The notes under the pieces are model-generated. The model saw only the letters and a program-made list of their open reading frames with translations. It was not told the origin of the DNA and ran no database searches. Shown piece after piece: positions 210-35,275 of a stretch of 35,275 bases of DNA. The position numbers and the translations under genes were made by a program. This DNA comes from a virus, in the IMG/VR virus record IMGVR_UViG_3300042934_000462, positions 1-35,275 of that record; one strand, written 5' to 3'. Every line of letters begins with the position of its first letter. The stretch's first letter is position 1.

Positions 210-238
210 TTGACGTCGGCCATTGGCTGTGCGATGAT
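210..238 (+). promoter_or_regulatory. Promoter with CCATTGG operator for gene at 245
   Basis: TTGACG (210-215), 17-bp spacer, GATGAT (233-238). The spacer contains CCATTGG at 220-226. The predicted transcription start falls on or next to the ATG at 245, giving a leaderless mRNA. It is one of seven promoters sharing this spacer motif. Confidence 0.75.
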
Positions 239-2824: not shown

Positions 2825-3231
2825 CCACCAATCCCCCGACCCGATGCCCCGCCCGCGGCATGATCCACGTCGGCAGCCAAACCCTCGGCGACGTCGGGTG
2901 CATGCTCGACGCCGGGCACGACGAGGACCGCTGGCGCGACCCATGGACCGGCCGCATCCTCAACGCGGACGAGTACGCCGAACACAACCGAGCCGGCGGG
3001 GATGCGTTGCTCGGCATCGAGCCGACCCCGCACCGCATCACGCTCGAATGGGAGGACGCCCCGATCGAGGTGCCGTGGGTCGACGACGGCGGGCCCGACT
3101 TCGATACCGAGGTCCCGGTTGACGGGCGCGTCGGCCGCTACCCCGACGGCTCGCCCATTTGGCACACCCCCGACGGCGATGGCAACCGCTTCGGCGGCGA
3201 AAGCTGGGCCGACCGCCTTGACCCCCGCTAA
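2821..3231 (+). CDS. Hypothetical protein before large terminase
   Basis: 136 residues, acidic and Gly/Asp/Pro-rich. The N-terminal segment (RCPARGMIHVGS... GCMLDAGHDEDRW) holds Cys and His residues spaced like a small metal-binding or extracellular-type fold. The C-terminus (GRVGRYPDGSPIWHTPDGDGN) has repeated PDG turns. No family recognised. It starts at a strong start-associated sequence with an ATGA overlap and overlaps the terminase start by 14 nt, so it belongs to the packaging operon. Confidence 0.65.
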   Translation: MTTNPPTRCPARGMIHVGSQTLGDVGCMLDAGHDEDRWRDPWTGRILNADEYAEHNRAGGDALLGIEPTPHRITLEWEDAPIEVPWVDDGGPDFDTEVPVDGRVGRYPDGSPIWHTPDGDGNRFGGESWADRLDPR

Positions 3232-4771
3232 CAAGACCCTCGCCAAGGGCCGCGAGCTCGCCGCCCGGCTCGCGGCCCTTGCGGCAGCCGGCGCCTCCGA
3301 GGATGCGCTCATCACCTACCGCCGGCACGAGACCCGCAACGACCCCGCGCTCTTCGCCCTGATCTACCTCTCTCGGCACCTCACCGATCCGGCAACCGGC
3401 CGCGTGACCCTGAGTGATGTGCACGTCGCGTGGGCGAAGAGCGCGAAGGCGTGGCGGAAACGCGCGGCCGAGCCGATGGCGTCGCGCCGGGCCGAGGTCG
3501 CCCCGCGTGAGATGGGCAAGTCAACGTGGTGGTTTCTCCTCCTGCCGATGTGGGCGGCGGCGCACAACCATGTCGGCTTCGCGGCGGCGTTCGCCGATAC
3601 CGACACTCAGGCCCAGACCCACCTCGCCTCATTCAAGGCCGAACTCGACACCAACGCCCTGATTCGCGCCGACTATCCCGACCTCGTCGAGCCGAAGACC
3701 CGCGGGCGCGGGACGGTGATGGCCGACCGGGTGAGCCTCTATCACGCGCGCTCGGGGTTCGTCTTCGCGGCGGCCGGCATGGACTCGTCGAACCTCGGCA
3801 TGAAGGTCGGTGACCGCCGGCCCGACCTCATCATCCTCGACGACATCGAGCCGCACGAGGCGCGCTATTCCAAGGGCCTTGCCGAGAAGCGGCTCAACAC
3901 CTTGCGCGAGGCGATCCTGCCGCTCAATGTCTACGCCCACGTCATCCTCGTCGGCACGGTGACGATGCAGGACTCGATCGTGCACCAAGTCGTGAAGCAT
4001 TCCCGCGGTGAGGTCGACGAGGCCAACGCATGGGTTGGGGAGGATCACCTCGTCGCCCGGCACTTCATGCCGATCATCACCGGCGAGGACGGCAAGCCCG
4101 CCTCGATATGGCCGGCGAAATGGCCGATCAGCTTCTTGCTGTCGATCGAGGGCACCCGCGGCTACCTCAAGAATTACGCCAACGACCCGCTCGGCGCCGA
4201 CGGCGACTATTGGACCGCGGATGACTTCATCCGGGCCGAGCTCCCCGGCGTGACGCGCGTGCTCGTCGAGGTCGACCCCGCCGTCACCTCGAAGGCGACA
4301 AGCGACTTCACCGGCATCGCTGTCATCGGCTGGGCGCCCGGCGAGCAGGGCTCGCTCGGCAAGTGCGTCGTCCTCGAAGCGCGCAAGGTCAAGAAAGACC
4401 CCGCGGCACTTCGGCTCGACATCATCGAGACCGTCGAGCGGCACAACGCCGGCCTCATCCGCATCGAGGTCAACCAAGGCGGCGACCTCTGGCGCACGAT
4501 CCTCTGGGGCATGCCGGTCAAGGTCAAGAGCGAGACCAACTCCGCACCCAAGGAGGTGCGCGCGGCCGACGCGCTCAACCACTACCAGCGCGGTCGCGTG
4601 CTGCATCACCCCGACGCGAACCTTCGCGATGCCGAGGGCGAGATGGTGTCATTCCCCAACGCCCCCAATGATGACCTCGTCGATGCGGTCGGCTCGGGCG
4701 TGCGCTACTTCTTGAGCCGGAAGCCCCGCGGCCCCCGTGCCGGCGTGGCGTCCGCGGCCTACGCAAATTAG
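3218..4771 (+). CDS. terL: Terminase large subunit
   Basis: The packaging motor ATPase and nuclease cuts concatemers and drives DNA into proheads. From the chosen TTG start it has 517 residues, the usual family length. The ATPase half shows a Walker A-like APREMGKST (95-103), Walker B LIILDDIE (204-211) and a coupling motif VGT (245-247). The nuclease half has the expected acidic residues: D353 in VDPAVTS, D363 in SDFTG, E417 in RIEVNQ, and D485/D486/D489 in PNDDLVDAV. The start is uncertain: no ATG has a good RBS, and TTG 3218 overlaps the previous gene by 14 nt; ATG 3179 is an alternative. The motor would act with the portal encoded at 6324. Confidence 0.93.
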   Translation: MTPANKTLAKGRELAARLAALAAAGASEDALITYRRHETRNDPALFALIYLSRHLTDPATGRVTLSDVHVAWAKSAKAWRKRAAEPMASRRAEVAPREMGKSTWWFLLLPMWAAAHNHVGFAAAFADTDTQAQTHLASFKAELDTNALIRADYPDLVEPKTRGRGTVMADRVSLYHARSGFVFAAAGMDSSNLGMKVGDRRPDLIILDDIEPHEARYSKGLAEKRLNTLREAILPLNVYAHVILVGTVTMQDSIVHQVVKHSRGEVDEANAWVGEDHLVARHFMPIITGEDGKPASIWPAKWPISFLLSIEGTRGYLKNYANDPLGADGDYWTADDFIRAELPGVTRVLVEVDPAVTSKATSDFTGIAVIGWAPGEQGSLGKCVVLEARKVKKDPAALRLDIIETVERHNAGLIRIEVNQGGDLWRTILWGMPVKVKSETNSAPKEVRAADALNHYQRGRVLHHPDANLRDAEGEMVSFPNAPNDDLVDAVGSGVRYFLSRKPRGPRAGVASAAYAN

Positions 4772-4774
4772 CGC

Positions 4775-4803
4775 TTGACGTCAGCCATTGGTCGGCCTTA
4801 CAC
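4775..4803 (+). promoter_or_regulatory. Promoter with CCATTGG operator for gene at 4811
   Basis: TTGACG (4775-4780), 17-bp spacer holding CCATTGG (4785-4791), then TTACAC (4798-4803). The start point would coincide with ATG 4811, giving a leaderless message. It begins 3 nt after the terminase stop. Confidence 0.75.
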
Positions 4804-4810
4804 TTGACCC

Positions 4811-5020
4811 ATGACCACCCCAGCCAAGGCCCACAAGCTCGCCACTATCTACACCGTCAGCGAGGGCGCCGACGTCGTCGCCCGGTTCGTCTATCTCGGC
4901 GACGCGGAAGCCTTTGCCGAGCGCGCCACCGAGCGGGAGCCGGGTCGACGCCTCCTCGTCGAGGATCGGCGCGGTTACGTGTCGCGCCTCTTCGAGAACG
5001 GTTGGACGCCGCGCGTCTGA
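4811..5020 (+). CDS. Moron-like small hypothetical protein
   Basis: 69 residues: an N-terminal strand pattern (LATIYTVSEGADVVARFVYL), then a helix (DAEAFAERATERE) and another strand (RRLLVEDRRGYVSRLF), a compact alpha/beta layout with no assigned family. It sits between the large terminase and a fibre gene with its own operator-bearing promoter directly upstream and a 13-bp perfect hairpin (5044-5076) directly downstream, an independent transcription unit in the late operon. That is the classical arrangement of a moron. The promoter links its expression to the early-type regulon, so a role in host takeover, superinfection exclusion or defence is plausible but unproven. Confidence 0.7.
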   Translation: MTTPAKAHKLATIYTVSEGADVVARFVYLGDAEAFAERATEREPGRRLLVEDRRGYVSRLFENGWTPRV

Positions 5021-5043
5021 ATTGCCGGTCGCTGACTCCCGAC

Positions 5044-5076
5044 CCGAAGGCCCCGCTCGATCGGCGGGGCCTTCGG
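5044..5076 (+). terminator. Strong hairpin terminator after moron gene
   Basis: A perfect 13-bp stem, CCGAAGGCCCCGC / GCGGGGCCTTCGG, with a 7-nt loop, 24 nt after the stop. There is no clear U tract, as is common for GC-rich actinobacterial terminators. It would insulate the small gene from the fibre gene at 5109. Confidence 0.7.
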
Positions 5077-6323: not shown

Positions 6324-7913
6324 ATGGTAAACGCCCCCGCTGACCTCGCCGGATACCGCGGCCACCTCGTCCGCGCGCTCGACCTCATCGAGCGTCGCGC
6401 CCCCGACTACCTCCGCGGCAAGGAGTACTACGACGGCACCCGCGCCGAGGTCGCGGCATCCGCGGCAGTGCAGGCCATCATCGAGAAGAGCGCTCAGGCG
6501 GCGCCGATCAGCCTTGCGCACATCCCGGTCGACGTCATCACCGACAAGGTCGAGCTCGCCTCGATCGCCGCCGCCGCCGAGCCGGCCAAGAGCGCGCTCG
6601 GCGCCGTCGTCGAAAAGAATGACCTCACCGACGAGGCCGACGATTACCTCCGCAAGGCGGGCTACTTCGGCGACTACTACGCGATCGTCGACCCGACCGA
6701 GGAGAGCGAGGACGGGGCGATCCTCGCCGACGGCATCACCGTCATCGGCTCGTCGCCGCTCTCGACCGTCATGGTGTACGACTCGAAGGATGGCCGCACC
6801 AAGCTCTACGGGGCGAAGGTCTGGCGCGTCGGCCCCAAGGGCTCGGAATACGACAAGGCACTCCTGTACTACGACGACGCCACGATCAAGCTTCGCAGCC
6901 CTCAGGGCGACACCTCGCGGGACGCGGACAAGTTCGTCCCCGACCTCGACGAGGGTGAAGAGCAGGGCGACGAGCGGATGCCGCACCCCGGCGGGCGCAT
7001 GCTCCTCGTACACCTTTCGATCGATGGCAAGCCCTACGGCACCCCACTCCACCGCAAGGCGTGGGGCCCTCAGGACGCCATCACCAAGGTCTCGGCGACG
7101 AACCTCGTCAACGTCGACGGCCTCGGCTTGCCGGCACGCTACGCGCTCCTCGACCCGCTGGCCGAAATCGACGACGACATCGACGACGACTTCGGCACCG
7201 CCGGCCCCGACACCACGGGCGCCGCGCCGAGCGACGGCCAGACCACCATCACCGCCGACAAGACCCGCACGCGCTCGGTGCCCGGCATGATCAACCTCCT
7301 CCGCGGGGTCAAGTCGGTCGGCCAATTCGACGCGGCCGGTTCCGACAACTTCCTCAAAAATCTCGATTGGTATGTGCGCGTCATGGCCGTCGCCACGGGC
7401 GTCGCGCTCTTCGAGTTCGATATGACCGGCGAGCAGCCCTCGGGCGAGTCCCGCCGCCGCGCCGAGTCCCGATCGAACCGCAAGGCGGCCAAGGTCAAGC
7501 GTCAGGCCGGCGCCTTCTTCGAGGAGCTCGCCGACACCGTGCTCGCCCTCCTCGGCATCGAGAGCGAGGTCGAGGCGACGTTCAATCCGAGCGAGACCTC
7601 AACCGACAAGGAGGGCATCGAGCTCGTCGCGTCGAAGATCGCAACCGGCATTCCGATCCCTCAGGCATTGCGCGAGGCGGGCTACACCGACGAGCAAGTC
7701 GACGAGTGGTTCCCCGAGGGCAAGCCGTGGATCACCCCCGCGTCGCTCACCGCGCTCGCGACGGCGCTCCAGCAGCTTGGGCAGGCCAAGACCCTCGGCG
7801 TTATCACCGACGAGGAGCTCCGCGAGCTCTTGCCGACGATCCTCACCGCCGCCCGTGGCGAGGCGCTCGCGCCCGTCGCTGCGGTCGTACCGCCGGCCGA
7901 GGCGGTGGCCTAA
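6324..7913 (+). CDS. Portal protein (SPP1 gp6-like)
   Basis: 529 residues, the normal size for siphovirus portals. The protein forms the dodecameric ring at the capsid vertex through which terminase pumps DNA and to which the neck attaches. Family-like features are the N-terminal helical part (DYLRGKEYYDGTR, about 28-40), the clip/wing strands in the first third, and the long helix after SVGQFDAAGSDNFLKNLDW (about 333-351) followed by MAVATGVALFEFDM. The C-terminus ends in an Ala/Pro-rich tail. It is followed by a MuF-like gene, the usual order in SPP1-type head modules. The stop overlaps the next ATG (TAATG). Confidence 0.88.
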   Translation: MVNAPADLAGYRGHLVRALDLIERRAPDYLRGKEYYDGTRAEVAASAAVQAIIEKSAQAAPISLAHIPVDVITDKVELASIAAAAEPAKSALGAVVEKNDLTDEADDYLRKAGYFGDYYAIVDPTEESEDGAILADGITVIGSSPLSTVMVYDSKDGRTKLYGAKVWRVGPKGSEYDKALLYYDDATIKLRSPQGDTSRDADKFVPDLDEGEEQGDERMPHPGGRMLLVHLSIDGKPYGTPLHRKAWGPQDAITKVSATNLVNVDGLGLPARYALLDPLAEIDDDIDDDFGTAGPDTTGAAPSDGQTTITADKTRTRSVPGMINLLRGVKSVGQFDAAGSDNFLKNLDWYVRVMAVATGVALFEFDMTGEQPSGESRRRAESRSNRKAAKVKRQAGAFFEELADTVLALLGIESEVEATFNPSETSTDKEGIELVASKIATGIPIPQALREAGYTDEQVDEWFPEGKPWITPASLTALATALQQLGQAKTLGVITDEELRELLPTILTAARGEALAPVAAVVPPAEAVA

Positions 7914-8963: not shown

Positions 8964-9659
8964 ATGACCCTCGACAACCGCCACAAGCTCGCCCTGCCGT
9001 ACTGGCAGCGCCCCGGCATCCGGCTCTTCGCCAAGGCCGCCGACGACATCACGATCGGCGGGGGTGACAACGACGACGACGAGGATGACGACGAGGACGA
9101 CGACGAGGACGACGACCCCGACGAGGGCAAGACCGAAGACGAGCTTCGCGCCGAGCTCAAGGCCGTCCGCGCGTCGCTCAGCGGCGTCAATGGCGAGAGC
9201 GCCCGGAAGCGCAGCCGCATCAACAAGCTCAAGAAGGAGCTCGAAGAGGCCCGCAAGGTCAAGCCGAAGAAGAAGGCCGACGACGAGGACGACGACCTCG
9301 ACGTCGAGAGCATCCGCGAGCAGGCCCGTCGCGAGGGCGAGAAGGCCGGCACCGACAAGCTCAAGCGAGCCGAGGCCAAGGCCGCGCTCGCCTCGGCCGG
9401 CGCCGACCCCTCGGCGCTCGCCCGGCTCGTGCGGATGATCGACCTCGACGAGCTTGACGTCGATGACGATGGCGAGGTCGACGGCCTCGACGACGCCGTT
9501 GCGACGCTGAAAGACGAGCTCCCCGCGCTCTTCCCCTCGACCCGCCGACGCCGCTCGTCGGTGGCCGGCGGCGGCGACCGCGACGGCGAGAAGGGTGGCA
9601 AGACCGAACCCAAGACCGCCAGCGAGAAGGCCGCCGCCAAGCTCCTCGGCAAGGGGTAG
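8964..9659 (+). CDS. Scaffolding protein
   Basis: 231 residues. After a short N-terminus comes a run of Asp/Glu (about 35-56), then a long charged coiled coil (ELRAELKAVRASL... INKLKKELEEARKVKP) and another acidic stretch; the Lys-rich C-terminus (ASEKAAAKLLGKG) would contact the coat protein. This composition and the position immediately before the major capsid gene are typical of scaffolds. No capsid protease gene is seen nearby, so the scaffold may exit without cleavage, as in SPP1/P22-type assembly (inference). ATG 8964 has GGAG 8 nt upstream and is preferred over ATG 8952. Confidence 0.82.
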   Translation: MTLDNRHKLALPYWQRPGIRLFAKAADDITIGGGDNDDDEDDDEDDDEDDDPDEGKTEDELRAELKAVRASLSGVNGESARKRSRINKLKKELEEARKVKPKKKADDEDDDLDVESIREQARREGEKAGTDKLKRAEAKAALASAGADPSALARLVRMIDLDELDVDDDGEVDGLDDAVATLKDELPALFPSTRRRRSSVAGGGDRDGEKGGKTEPKTASEKAAAKLLGKG

Positions 9660-27318: not shown

Positions 27319-27348
27319 ACCCTAGTGGCTGACCAATGGCAATGTCAA
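27319..27348 (-). promoter_or_regulatory. Leftward promoter with CCATTGG operator
   Basis: TTGACA (27343-27348), 18-bp spacer with CCATTGG (minus strand; 27333-27339), TAGGGT (27319-27324). Transcription would start near 27312, giving a leader of about 32 nt with an RBS. Its -35 overlaps the stop codon of the upstream gene. Confidence 0.78.
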
Positions 27349-28879: not shown

Positions 28880-29344
28880 TCAGTGCTGGCAGGGGACTTG
28901 GGTGCCATCCGCGAGGACCTCGCAGATGGTGTGCGCCATCGAATCCGTGGCGGGGTCGTACACCGCGCCCTCGGGCACGGTCGGCGCCGGGGCCGGCGCG
29001 GGGTCGGTGCCCTCGTCGCTCGGCTCGTCGTAGCTCTCGACGGGGGCCTCGACCGCGGCGGCCTGCTCGGCCGCGACGCGCTCGGCCTCAGCCTGAGCGG
29101 CGGCAGCCGCGGCAGCTTCGGCGGCGAGGCGGTCGGCCTCAGCCTGAGCGGCGACGACCTCCTGCTCGGCCGCGAGGCCGTTGACGTCGGTCTCGTCGAG
29201 GTCGAGGGTGAGCGCCGGGTCGGCGGTCTGGGTGACGGCGGCCGGCTCGGCGGTCACCGCGGTCGCGAGGGCCGTGCCACCGACCGCGAACGCGGCGACG
29301 ATGGCAATGCCGACGATGCCGCCGGTGATGCGTTCGGTGTTCAT
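28880..29344 (-). CDS. Membrane-anchored or secreted protein with Ala-rich coiled coil
   Basis: 154 residues. An N-terminal hydrophobic segment (about 8-31, GGIVGIAIVAAFAVGGTALA) serves as a signal or anchor. Residues 58-100 form an Ala/Glu coiled coil (QAEADRLAAEAAAAAAAQAE), then a Pro/Ala spacer and a C-terminal tip with two Cys (C141, C152) that may form a disulphide. This predicts an extracytoplasmic protein made early in infection, for example one altering the cell surface; function is unproven. The start overlaps the upstream stop (ATGA). Confidence 0.68.
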   Translation of the reverse strand: MNTERITGGIVGIAIVAAFAVGGTALATAVTAEPAAVTQTADPALTLDLDETDVNGLAAEQEVVAAQAEADRLAAEAAAAAAAQAEAERVAAEQAAAVEAPVESYDEPSDEGTDPAPAPAPTVPEGAVYDPATDSMAHTICEVLADGTQVPCQH

Positions 29345-29579: not shown

Positions 29580-29609
29580 AACCTAGTGGCCGACCAATGG
29601 CTTTGTCAA
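29580..29609 (-). promoter_or_regulatory. Leftward promoter with CCATTGG operator for gene at 29573
   Basis: TTGACA (29604-29609), 18-bp spacer with CCATTGG (29594-29600 on the opposite strand), TAGGTT (29580-29585). Start of transcription coincides with ATG 29573. Nearly the same spacer sequence as the 27319-27348 promoter. Confidence 0.8.
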
Positions 29610-29952: not shown

Positions 29953-29981
29953 TTGCGGCTATTGGTTGACCAATGTAGTCT
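29953..29981 (+). promoter_or_regulatory. RHH gene promoter with inverted-repeat operator
   Basis: TTGCGG (29953-29958), 17-bp spacer, TAGTCT (29976-29981). The spacer holds ATTGGT-TG-ACCAAT (29961-29974), a perfect 6-bp inverted repeat. The start point falls on ATG 29989. The location suits autorepression by blocking RNA polymerase. Confidence 0.7.
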
Positions 29982-29988
29982 ATGCACC

Positions 29989-30228
29989 ATGACCGATGCA
30001 ACCACCTCGCCCAAGCCCTCATCGCGCAAGCCCTCGGGCGCCGCGGTGGCCGGTGCCCACCCCCGCCCGACCTTCTACCCGCGGCAACTCGTCATCATGG
30101 CGACCGACGCGCTGGCCGAGGAGGTCGAGCGCCTCGCGCACGCGCGCGGGGTCTCCAAGAGCGAGATTGCTCGCACCCTCATGGAGGCCGGCCTTGCCGC
30201 CGGCGCCGCCGCGAGCAACGACGACTAG
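29989..30228 (+). CDS. Ribbon-helix-helix transcriptional regulator
   Basis: 79 residues. Residues 1-27 are disordered and basic. Residues 32-39 (RQLVIMAT) form the DNA-contacting beta strand, followed by helix A (ALAEEVERLAHARG) and helix B (SKSEIARTLMEAGLAA), a classic MetJ/Arc fold active as a dimer. It is the only rightward gene inside the leftward arm, with its own promoter and terminator. Its promoter spacer contains an inverted repeat whose half-site ATTGG recurs in six other promoters, so it is the best candidate for the regulator of that set. The ATG at 29989 is set by the leaderless promoter; an upstream in-frame start at 29950 lies before the -35 box. Confidence 0.82.
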   Translation: MTDATTSPKPSSRKPSGAAVAGAHPRPTFYPRQLVIMATDALAEEVERLAHARGVSKSEIARTLMEAGLAAGAAASNDD

Positions 30229-33915: not shown

Positions 33916-34211
33916 GAGAGCACCTCGCGGGCGGCGGTGATGGCGCGGTCGAGGGTGTTGCCGTCGGTCTCGACGTAGCCCTCGCCATCCCATGCGTCGA
34001 GGATCGCCTCAAGGGCGGTGCGGAGGGTTGCCGAGCGCTGGGTCGCCTCCTCGTGAAGGCGGCGGTAGGTCTCCAGCGTCAAGGGCTGAGCGGCGGCGAG
34101 GCGGCGTCGGGCATACTCGGCCTCGAAGGCTTCGCGTCGGGCCCGGACCGCGGCCTCGGTGCGCTCGGCGCGGGAGAGGTGAGCCTCGATCGGCTCTTCG
34201 GGGGAGGTCAT
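33912..34211 (-). CDS. Hypothetical helical protein with structured leader
   Basis: 99 residues, rich in Arg/Glu/Ala helix (EAAVRARREAFEAEYARRRL; ATLRTALEAILDAWDGEGYV). No family recognised. The gene is preceded by its own operator-bearing promoter and a leader of about 129 nt with nested hairpins whose outer stem reaches the Shine-Dalgarno AAGAAGGG. Its expression may therefore be controlled at the RNA level. It heads the unit that leads into the primase. Confidence 0.62.
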   Translation of the reverse strand: MTSPEEPIEAHLSRAERTEAAVRARREAFEAEYARRRLAAAQPLTLETYRRLHEEATQRSATLRTALEAILDAWDGEGYVETDGNTLDRAITAAREVLS

Positions 34212-34223
34212 GGTGTGTCCCTT

Positions 34224-34331
34224 CTTGGCTGGGTTCGCGTGGCCTCGGGTGGAGGGGGCCGATCGCCGCCCGGTGACGTCCCTCGCGGGCTTTTCACTCA
34301 CCGGGCGGCGGCGGAGGTTGCCCCAGCCAAG
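34224..34331 (-). promoter_or_regulatory. Nested-hairpin 5' leader, possible RBS-sequestering RNA element
   Basis: On the minus-strand transcript a 10-bp outer stem (CTTGGCTGGG, 34331-34322, with CCCAGCCAAG, 34233-34224) encloses a 13-bp perfect inner stem (CGCCGCCCGGTGA / TCACCGGGCGGCG, 34310-34298 and 34276-34264) with a 21-nt loop. The 3' strand of the outer stem includes the first bases of the Shine-Dalgarno. It also contains the CCCAGCC element found just before other starts, displaced here by about 12 nt. Confidence 0.6.
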
Positions 34332-34346
34332 GCCAACACGTGTATC

Positions 34347-34375
34347 ACTGTACGCGCCCCATTGGCTGAGGTCAA
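34347..34375 (-). promoter_or_regulatory. Leftward promoter with CCAATGG operator
   Basis: TTGACC (34370-34375), 17-bp spacer containing CCAATGG (minus-strand reading; plus-strand CCATTGG at 34360-34366), TACAGT (34347-34352). Transcription would start near 34340. Confidence 0.75.
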
Positions 34376-34833: not shown

Positions 34834-35013
34834 CTAGCGGTTGGTGAGCTCTTCGCGGATGAAGTCGTACCGCATCTGCTGGAAGCGGTCGAGCTCGTCG
34901 AGCCCTTCGAGGATCGACGCCTCGGCGGCGAGGTCGTCGGTGTTGATCGTCTGGACGGGGGTGGGGTAGACGTCGGTGTAGCGGAGGGCCTTGGTGTTCT
35001 GGGTGGTGGTCAT
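34834..35013 (-). CDS. First leftward gene, small hypothetical, leaderless
   Basis: 59 residues from ATG 35013, which lies 6 nt after the -10 box of an operator-bearing promoter; a longer in-frame reading from 35094 would start upstream of the promoter. Begins with ATGACCACC like several other genes here. Acidic helical C-terminus (AAEASILEGLDELDRFQQMR). No family recognised. As the promoter-proximal gene of the early arm next to the putative origin, it is probably expressed first in infection. Confidence 0.68.
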   Translation of the reverse strand: MTTTQNTKALRYTDVYPTPVQTINTDDLAAEASILEGLDELDRFQQMRYDFIREELTNR

Positions 35014-35019
35014 GTATCT

Positions 35020-35048
35020 AGTGTACGTCGGCCAATGGTGCACGTCAA
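35020..35048 (-). promoter_or_regulatory. Leftward early promoter with CCATTGG operator
   Basis: TTGACG (35043-35048), 17-bp spacer with CCATTGG (plus-strand CCAATGG at 35032-35038), TACACT (35020-35025), then 6 nt to ATG 35013. It faces the rightward promoter at 210 across the junction region. Confidence 0.78.
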
Positions 35049-35148
35049 GTCTTATTTGCGGAAAGTTTGAAGAATAGTGAGGAGCGGTGTGCAAGGGTGC
35101 AAGGAGTGCAAGGGGTTTCGGTTCACCCCATACGAGGGCTCAAGGTGT
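35044..35148. other. Candidate replication origin or packaging site (left half)
   Basis: The left half of the divergent intergenic region contains a locally AT-rich stretch (about 35049-35080), unusual for this GC-rich genome and compatible with a DNA-unwinding element. It is followed by three tandem GTGCAAGG units (35087-35108), mirror images of the CCTTGCAC units at 84-110. Bases 35087-35123 pair almost perfectly with 73-110. The -35 box of the leftward promoter for the gene starting at 35013 overlaps its left edge. Confidence 0.5.
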
Positions 35149-35275
35149 GTTGACTACCCTTATTCTCCTTGCGCAAGGATGATAGGGGTCGTACTCGCAT
35201 GAAAACGCCCCTAGGGCGTAAACCGGAAACCCCTTGCACCCCTTGCACCCTTGCACACCCCCTCTACTAAATCGC
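35149..35275. repeat. Terminal overlap, second copy of 1-127
   Basis: Exact second copy of the first 127 bases. It should be trimmed before gene counting or read mapping. After closing the circle, the region between the divergent genes at 35013 (leftward) and 245 (rightward) is continuous. Confidence 0.95.

Follow-up and report, generated by a model that had tools for sequence, protein, structure and literature searches.

In archaeal viruses, early genes that stand under a shared regulatory sequence together with an autoregulator have been used to predict anti-defence genes (PMC11065993), and in a Cluster O mycobacteriophage 17-bp dyad repeats in more than 30 dispersed copies accompany leaderless SigA promoters (PMC4351075). 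At the protein level, the best Dali match of AcrIF9 in a published search is Dmd (PMC7714069). The locus described here lies in a 35,275-base virus record (the window, which was analysed over its whole length), in which the late genes point rightward and the early-type genes, those for replication among them, point leftward, and it resembles each of these systems in part. As in the archaeal viruses, unrelated small genes stand behind one early regulatory sequence and a small DNA-binding protein is proposed as the shut-off, but the virus is a bacterial phage, its promoters are of the sigma-70 type, the protein is a ribbon-helix-helix (RHH) rather than a wHTH protein, and one member of the set sits inside the late gene block. 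The Cluster O comparison joins two actinophages with predicted leaderless promoters and a repeated dyad motif; here, however, there are six copies, all in promoter spacers, and the motif changes by lineage. The locus is also moron-like: one gene, with a promoter and a probable terminator to itself, is inserted where relatives have the two flanking genes side by side. Unlike a moron, it shows no sign of lysogeny and no foreign GC content, it takes its promoter from the early set of the phage, and it is the promoter-bearing site that is conserved while the cargo is replaced.

A perfect 127-bp direct terminal repeat (1–127 and 35149–35275) indicates that the genome is probably complete, circularly assembled and about 35.1 kb long. 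Close to the joined ends we note a 34-bp inverted repeat, 97% complementary (GAAACCCCTTGCACCCCTTGCACCC..., 78–111 and 35086–35119), which is possibly an origin or packaging site. The terminase and portal proteins are kin to those of the Microbacterium phages Isperia, Wyvern and OscarSo. An Rfam search of the window gave no match. Further along the late block, a scaffold-like gene (8964–9659) contains long Asp/Glu-rich coding repeats at 9061–9307. The cassette and its flanks are made up as follows.

3002–4771, plus strand: terminase large subunit gene (terL), given as the longest open reading frame (PHROG 38, E 5e-60)
4775–4804, plus strand: the cassette's leaderless promoter of early type, TTGACG-18-TACACT, recognised by its signature and spacer motif
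4784–4796, plus strand: operator-like spacer element GCCATTGGTCGGC, identical to the copy at 29589–29601 on the minus strand
4811–5020, plus strand: 69-aa cargo gene (orf69) with an ATG start, called by codon score and without detectable relatives
5044–5076, plus strand: 13-bp perfect hairpin with a loop of 7, a probable U-less terminator, from a stem search and covariation with L003
5109–6314, plus strand: collagen-like fibre gene, the right neighbour of the cassette (PHROG tail fibre matches)
6324–7913, plus strand: portal protein gene (PHROG 104, E 3.6e-39)

The start of terL is probably internal, near 3218, the position that codon scoring favours. A preliminary description of this DNA had set the unit between terminase and portal; its left neighbour is indeed terL, but on the right it is followed by the fibre gene, with the portal gene beginning at 6324. 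A homologous fibre gene occupies the matching position in L003, the closest relative.

We find that the 69-aa gene does have a leaderless promoter of its own right behind the terminase stop, as first described: the terL stop ends at 4771, so that the promoter begins after a 3-nt gap. The –10 hexamer TACACT ends 6 nt 5′ of the ATG at 4811, and the cassette transcript is therefore expected to start at or near the start codon; orf69 has no Shine-Dalgarno sequence. Its codon score of 0.34 per codon falls within the range of accepted genes, all overlapping frames score negative, and both its GC content (68.6% versus 68.8% for the genome) and its codon use are those of the genome. In a generic sigma-70 scan, with 2 matches against 1.3 expected, the cassette promoter does not stand out from chance; the strict leaderless signature is found four times in the window, against 0.017 expected per 35 kb. 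Early expression of the cassette, as predicted from this promoter, is well supported by computation.

The hairpin begins 23 nt 3′ of the orf69 stop and, in agreement with the preliminary description, is a perfect 13-bp stem; it is the only perfect stem of at least 11 bp in the 35,275 bp, and 11 of 15 simulated genomes have none. Pairing is retained in L003, where four of 11 pairs are compensated and none is broken, and OscarSo likewise has a unique hairpin directly 3′ of its cargo gene, as in the window. The hairpin lacks a U-run; as judged from its pairing and position it is a probable terminator.

The cassette promoter belongs to a set that is defined by the spacer motif CCAWTGG. This motif occurs six times in the genome, each time in a promoter spacer and 3–4 nt after a TTGAC hexamer, whereas 30 Markov simulations give 0–1 such arrangement per genome. 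The six promoters start at +210, +4775, –27348, –29609, –34375 and –35048, and four of them have a leaderless ATG. The earlier assignment of the cassette to an early-type set, as an autonomous transcription unit, is supported. The other five members of the set are listed here with the regulator gene and its own operator-like repeat.

210–238, plus strand: second rightward leaderless promoter, with CCATTGG, for the gene at 245–496 (motif and leaderless signature)
27319–27348, minus strand: early promoter with operator-like CATTGGTCAGCCACTA (CCAWTGG set)
29580–29609, minus strand: early leaderless promoter with operator-like CATTGGTCGGCCACTA (CCAWTGG set, leaderless signature)
34347–34375, minus strand: early promoter with CCAATGG (CCAWTGG set)
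35020–35048, minus strand: early leaderless promoter with CCATTGG, for the gene at 34834–35013 (CCAWTGG set, leaderless signature)
29960–29975, plus strand: operator-like TATTGGTTGACCAATG, a near-perfect inverted repeat within the RHH-gene promoter, from motif comparison
29989–30228, plus strand: RHH (Arc-like) regulator gene, probable autorepressor of the promoter set (Pfam, PHROG and structural model)

Between the –34375 promoter and the gene that starts at 34211, the leader contains a GC-rich, attenuator-like stem, CGCCGCCCGGTGA / TCACCGGGCGGCG (34262–34306, minus strand). The operator at 4775 has a degenerate right half, CCTTAC in place of CCACTA, and for this reason a position weight matrix built from the early operators leaves 4775 out of the top 12 of the window. 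Compared as 16-mers with the early promoters of their own genomes, the slot promoters of the window and of G004 each match at 15 of 16 positions (0 of 200 shuffles in both cases) and that of OscarSo matches at 13 of 16 in inverted orientation (0 of 200 shuffles); weaker own-genome matches, 12 of 16 each, are seen in Isperia (p 0.005) and Wyvern (p 0.025). The slot promoters of G010, G017 and G018 do not favour the early promoters of their own genomes in this test, and G010 shows a shared TAGTTGAC-type element despite that result. The spacer element varies by lineage while the –35 and –10 hexamers stay. Two candidate elements were set aside: the exact 17-mer TTGACGTCRGCCATTGG has seven matches in viral contigs, with promoter context in L003 and the rest apparently due to chance, and CCACTAGG, which lies around the –10 in several genomes, is not a separate multicopy element.

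The product of the gene at 29989–30228 matches Pfam RHH_1 at E 0.0017, just under the curated cut-off, and a PHROG Arc-like repressor at E 0.0014. Its model, from an alignment with the OscarSo row left out, contains two helices at pLDDT of about 95–98, and structure comparison returns RHH proteins in nearly all rows (best Z 5.6); the alignment profile finds weak matches only among PDB sequences. Among the leftward genes of the window this gene alone lies on the plus strand. RHH orthologues are present in the genomes with an own-genome operator match, and the RHH-gene promoter carries the same type of operator-like repeat in the window, G003, OscarSo, Isperia, Wyvern and G010. Because the spacer motif varies by lineage and accompanies the RHH-gene promoter, we read it as an operator rather than a promoter element. 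The protein is a probable repressor of the early promoters, its own included, that would act by operator binding; an activating role instead is conceivable from the same arrangement.

Relatives were gathered by terL and portal, and the terL–portal interval was read in each. By our own tally, small genes stand in this interval in about 15 of about 25 lineages, and most of the occupied slots have a predicted leaderless promoter directly 3′ of terL; in L055, L058, L059 and L065 the TTGAC hexamer itself includes the TGA with which terL stops. No strict leaderless promoter other than the slot promoter occurs in the genomes or contigs of OscarSo, Isperia, G004, G017 and fragment G002. The interval is empty in G003, G008, G012 (20 nt) and L057 (27 nt), where terL and portal are some 20–60 nt apart or nearly so, while the window has the fibre gene in addition. 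Presence is therefore variable, the opposite of the invariable presence that would have told against the preliminary description, with either different genes or a near-abutting terL and portal at the site. L003 keeps the promoter, flanks and hairpin around an unrelated 70-aa gene, which at the DNA level resembles orf69 hardly more than shuffled sequence does. Among relatives the cargo is most often a small membrane protein rich in proline or alanine, a finding that points to envelope functions more than to a single shared counter-defence role; one membrane protein family is found in OscarSo, Isperia, Wyvern, G006 and G017 plus weaker members. Other slots hold a LuxR-type HTH protein or a cytosine methylase-like protein. 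It looks from these comparisons as if the slot, and not the gene, is the conserved thing, a site for exchangeable accessory genes, and the literature we searched contains no description of a post-terminase slot or switch, which does not prove that none exists.

Several individual slots deserve mention. That of G010 (L012, 7450–8270) has its promoter at the terL stop, followed by a small gene with a CxxC motif and the cytosine methylase-like gene (Pfam DNA_methylase, 2.7e-6). The small genes in the slot of G009 (L011, 7640–9020) are headed by a tandem of three leaderless promoters that repeat one spacer (TTGCGCCRTGCCGGATTAGGTG). The G015 contig has a further copy of its slot promoter at position 36980, where the portal gene ends; units armed with a promoter may thus be present at several boundaries between late genes. 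A small membrane protein of the early region of the window (28880–29344, minus strand) is weakly related to the slot cargo of L052 (E 1.9e-6) and G004 (E 1e-4), a likeness to be read with caution because the sequences are alanine-rich. A suspected tRNA in the L060 slot is not recognised as such by ARAGORN.

For orf69 itself, we find no relatives in phages, plasmids, GTDB genomes, PDB, Pfam, PHROGs or PADLOC; an apparent homologue in L002 (39%) is antisense to an 878-aa open reading frame and hence due to chance. A single-sequence AlphaFold2 model folds as beta-beta-alpha-beta-beta (pLDDT 75, pTM 0.59). In structure comparison the first six rows are all counter-defence proteins, either the antitoxin Dmd (T4, RB69) or the anti-CRISPR AcrIF9, at Z 6.5 to 4.9, followed by 4.6; the top values are 6.5, 6.2, 6.0, 5.9 and 5.8, and a Z below 8 may reflect no more than a common arrangement. 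Foldseek gives no significant match (E 0.35 and above). The model shares with Dmd and AcrIF9 a similar, small size and the same order of elements, but it comes from one sequence, its Z scores against them stay between 6.5 and 4.9, and orf69 has no detectable sequence relation to either, with no PDB sequence match to them. The preliminary description held that such cassettes often encode fitness factors such as exclusion or anti-defence proteins; for orf69, a counter-defence role suggested by the model is our best single guess, plausible but tentative, as a shared small fold shows no function. More doubtful still is the broader proposal that in this actinophage group the slot is a dedicated, early-expressed counter-defence (host-takeover) island under an Aca-like autoregulated RHH repressor, with orf69 as a new Dmd/AcrIF9-like defence inhibitor.

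Taken as a whole, the locus is probably, though by no means surely, a promoter-armed cargo slot behind terL that holds an early, hairpin-insulated and RHH-controlled cassette with exchangeable cargo. The cassette's own leaderless promoter would let host RNA polymerase transcribe it early in infection, with the hairpin as an insulator between the cassette and the fibre, portal and late genes. Sequence and comparison show the gene, the promoter, the hairpin, the variability of the slot and the shared operator; the timing, the termination and the repression we infer. The RHH protein, which would repress itself, would bind the spacer operator and, while accumulating, shut off the cassette along with the other early promoters. 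The cargo would be exchangeable; in the window it would be a soluble 69-aa protein whose most likely target, early in infection, is a host protein and plausibly part of a defence system, in the manner of Dmd or AcrIF9.

If the unit were an ordinary early gene that a rearrangement had left stranded among the late genes, no special slot would be needed; its promoter would be the generic host-sigma promoter of the phage, and the spacer motif part of that promoter. The motif always accompanies the –35 hexamer, so that an extended promoter element fits this feature equally well, and orf69 has the GC content and codon use of its genome. Yet many lineages have leaderless units at the same site, with cargo that differs, and a motif that varies by lineage beside constant –35 and –10 hexamers, together with its link to the RHH promoter, suits an operator better; we consider a stranded gene unlikely. 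That promoter and hairpin are conserved between the window and L003 while the reading frame is not would also be expected of a regulatory device which supplies or insulates transcription of fibre and portal, with the small frame as a passenger. Such a device is very improbable given the genuine coding statistics of orf69, a hairpin that lies between orf69 and the fibre gene, and the long recognisable cargo (methylase, LuxR-type HTH and membrane proteins) in relatives.

The term moron-like in the preliminary description raises a further possibility, a classical prophage moron, acquired as foreign DNA and expressed from a repressed prophage to give the lysogen exclusion or immunity. Its promoter, here predicted by computation only, its probable terminator and its absence between terL and portal in relatives all agree with this, and to that extent the term holds. 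Expression from a prophage is unsupported, however, because no tyrosine or serine integrase or resolvase domain is found in the window genome; no integrase is annotated in OscarSo, Isperia or Wyvern either, and the phage is probably a lytic actinobacteriophage. The base composition of the gene does not differ from that of the genome, and its promoter element is common to early lytic-type promoters, so that a repressor would be expected to silence the cassette in a lysogen. A prophage moron is the faintest of the possibilities considered here, and since the composition is ordinary and a prophage state unsupported we do not file the locus as a classical moron.

We found no published transcription model for these phages in the literature searched. 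If the reading as a promoter-armed cargo slot is right, it describes an early-regulon switch in these phages, an RHH autorepressor with operators that change from lineage to lineage. A leaderless promoter that abuts the terL stop and carries the phage's own RHH operator would then pick out actinophage accessory genes without recourse to homology, and the orphan genes of small actinophages would become a clearly bounded set of candidates to enter into expression and defence assays.
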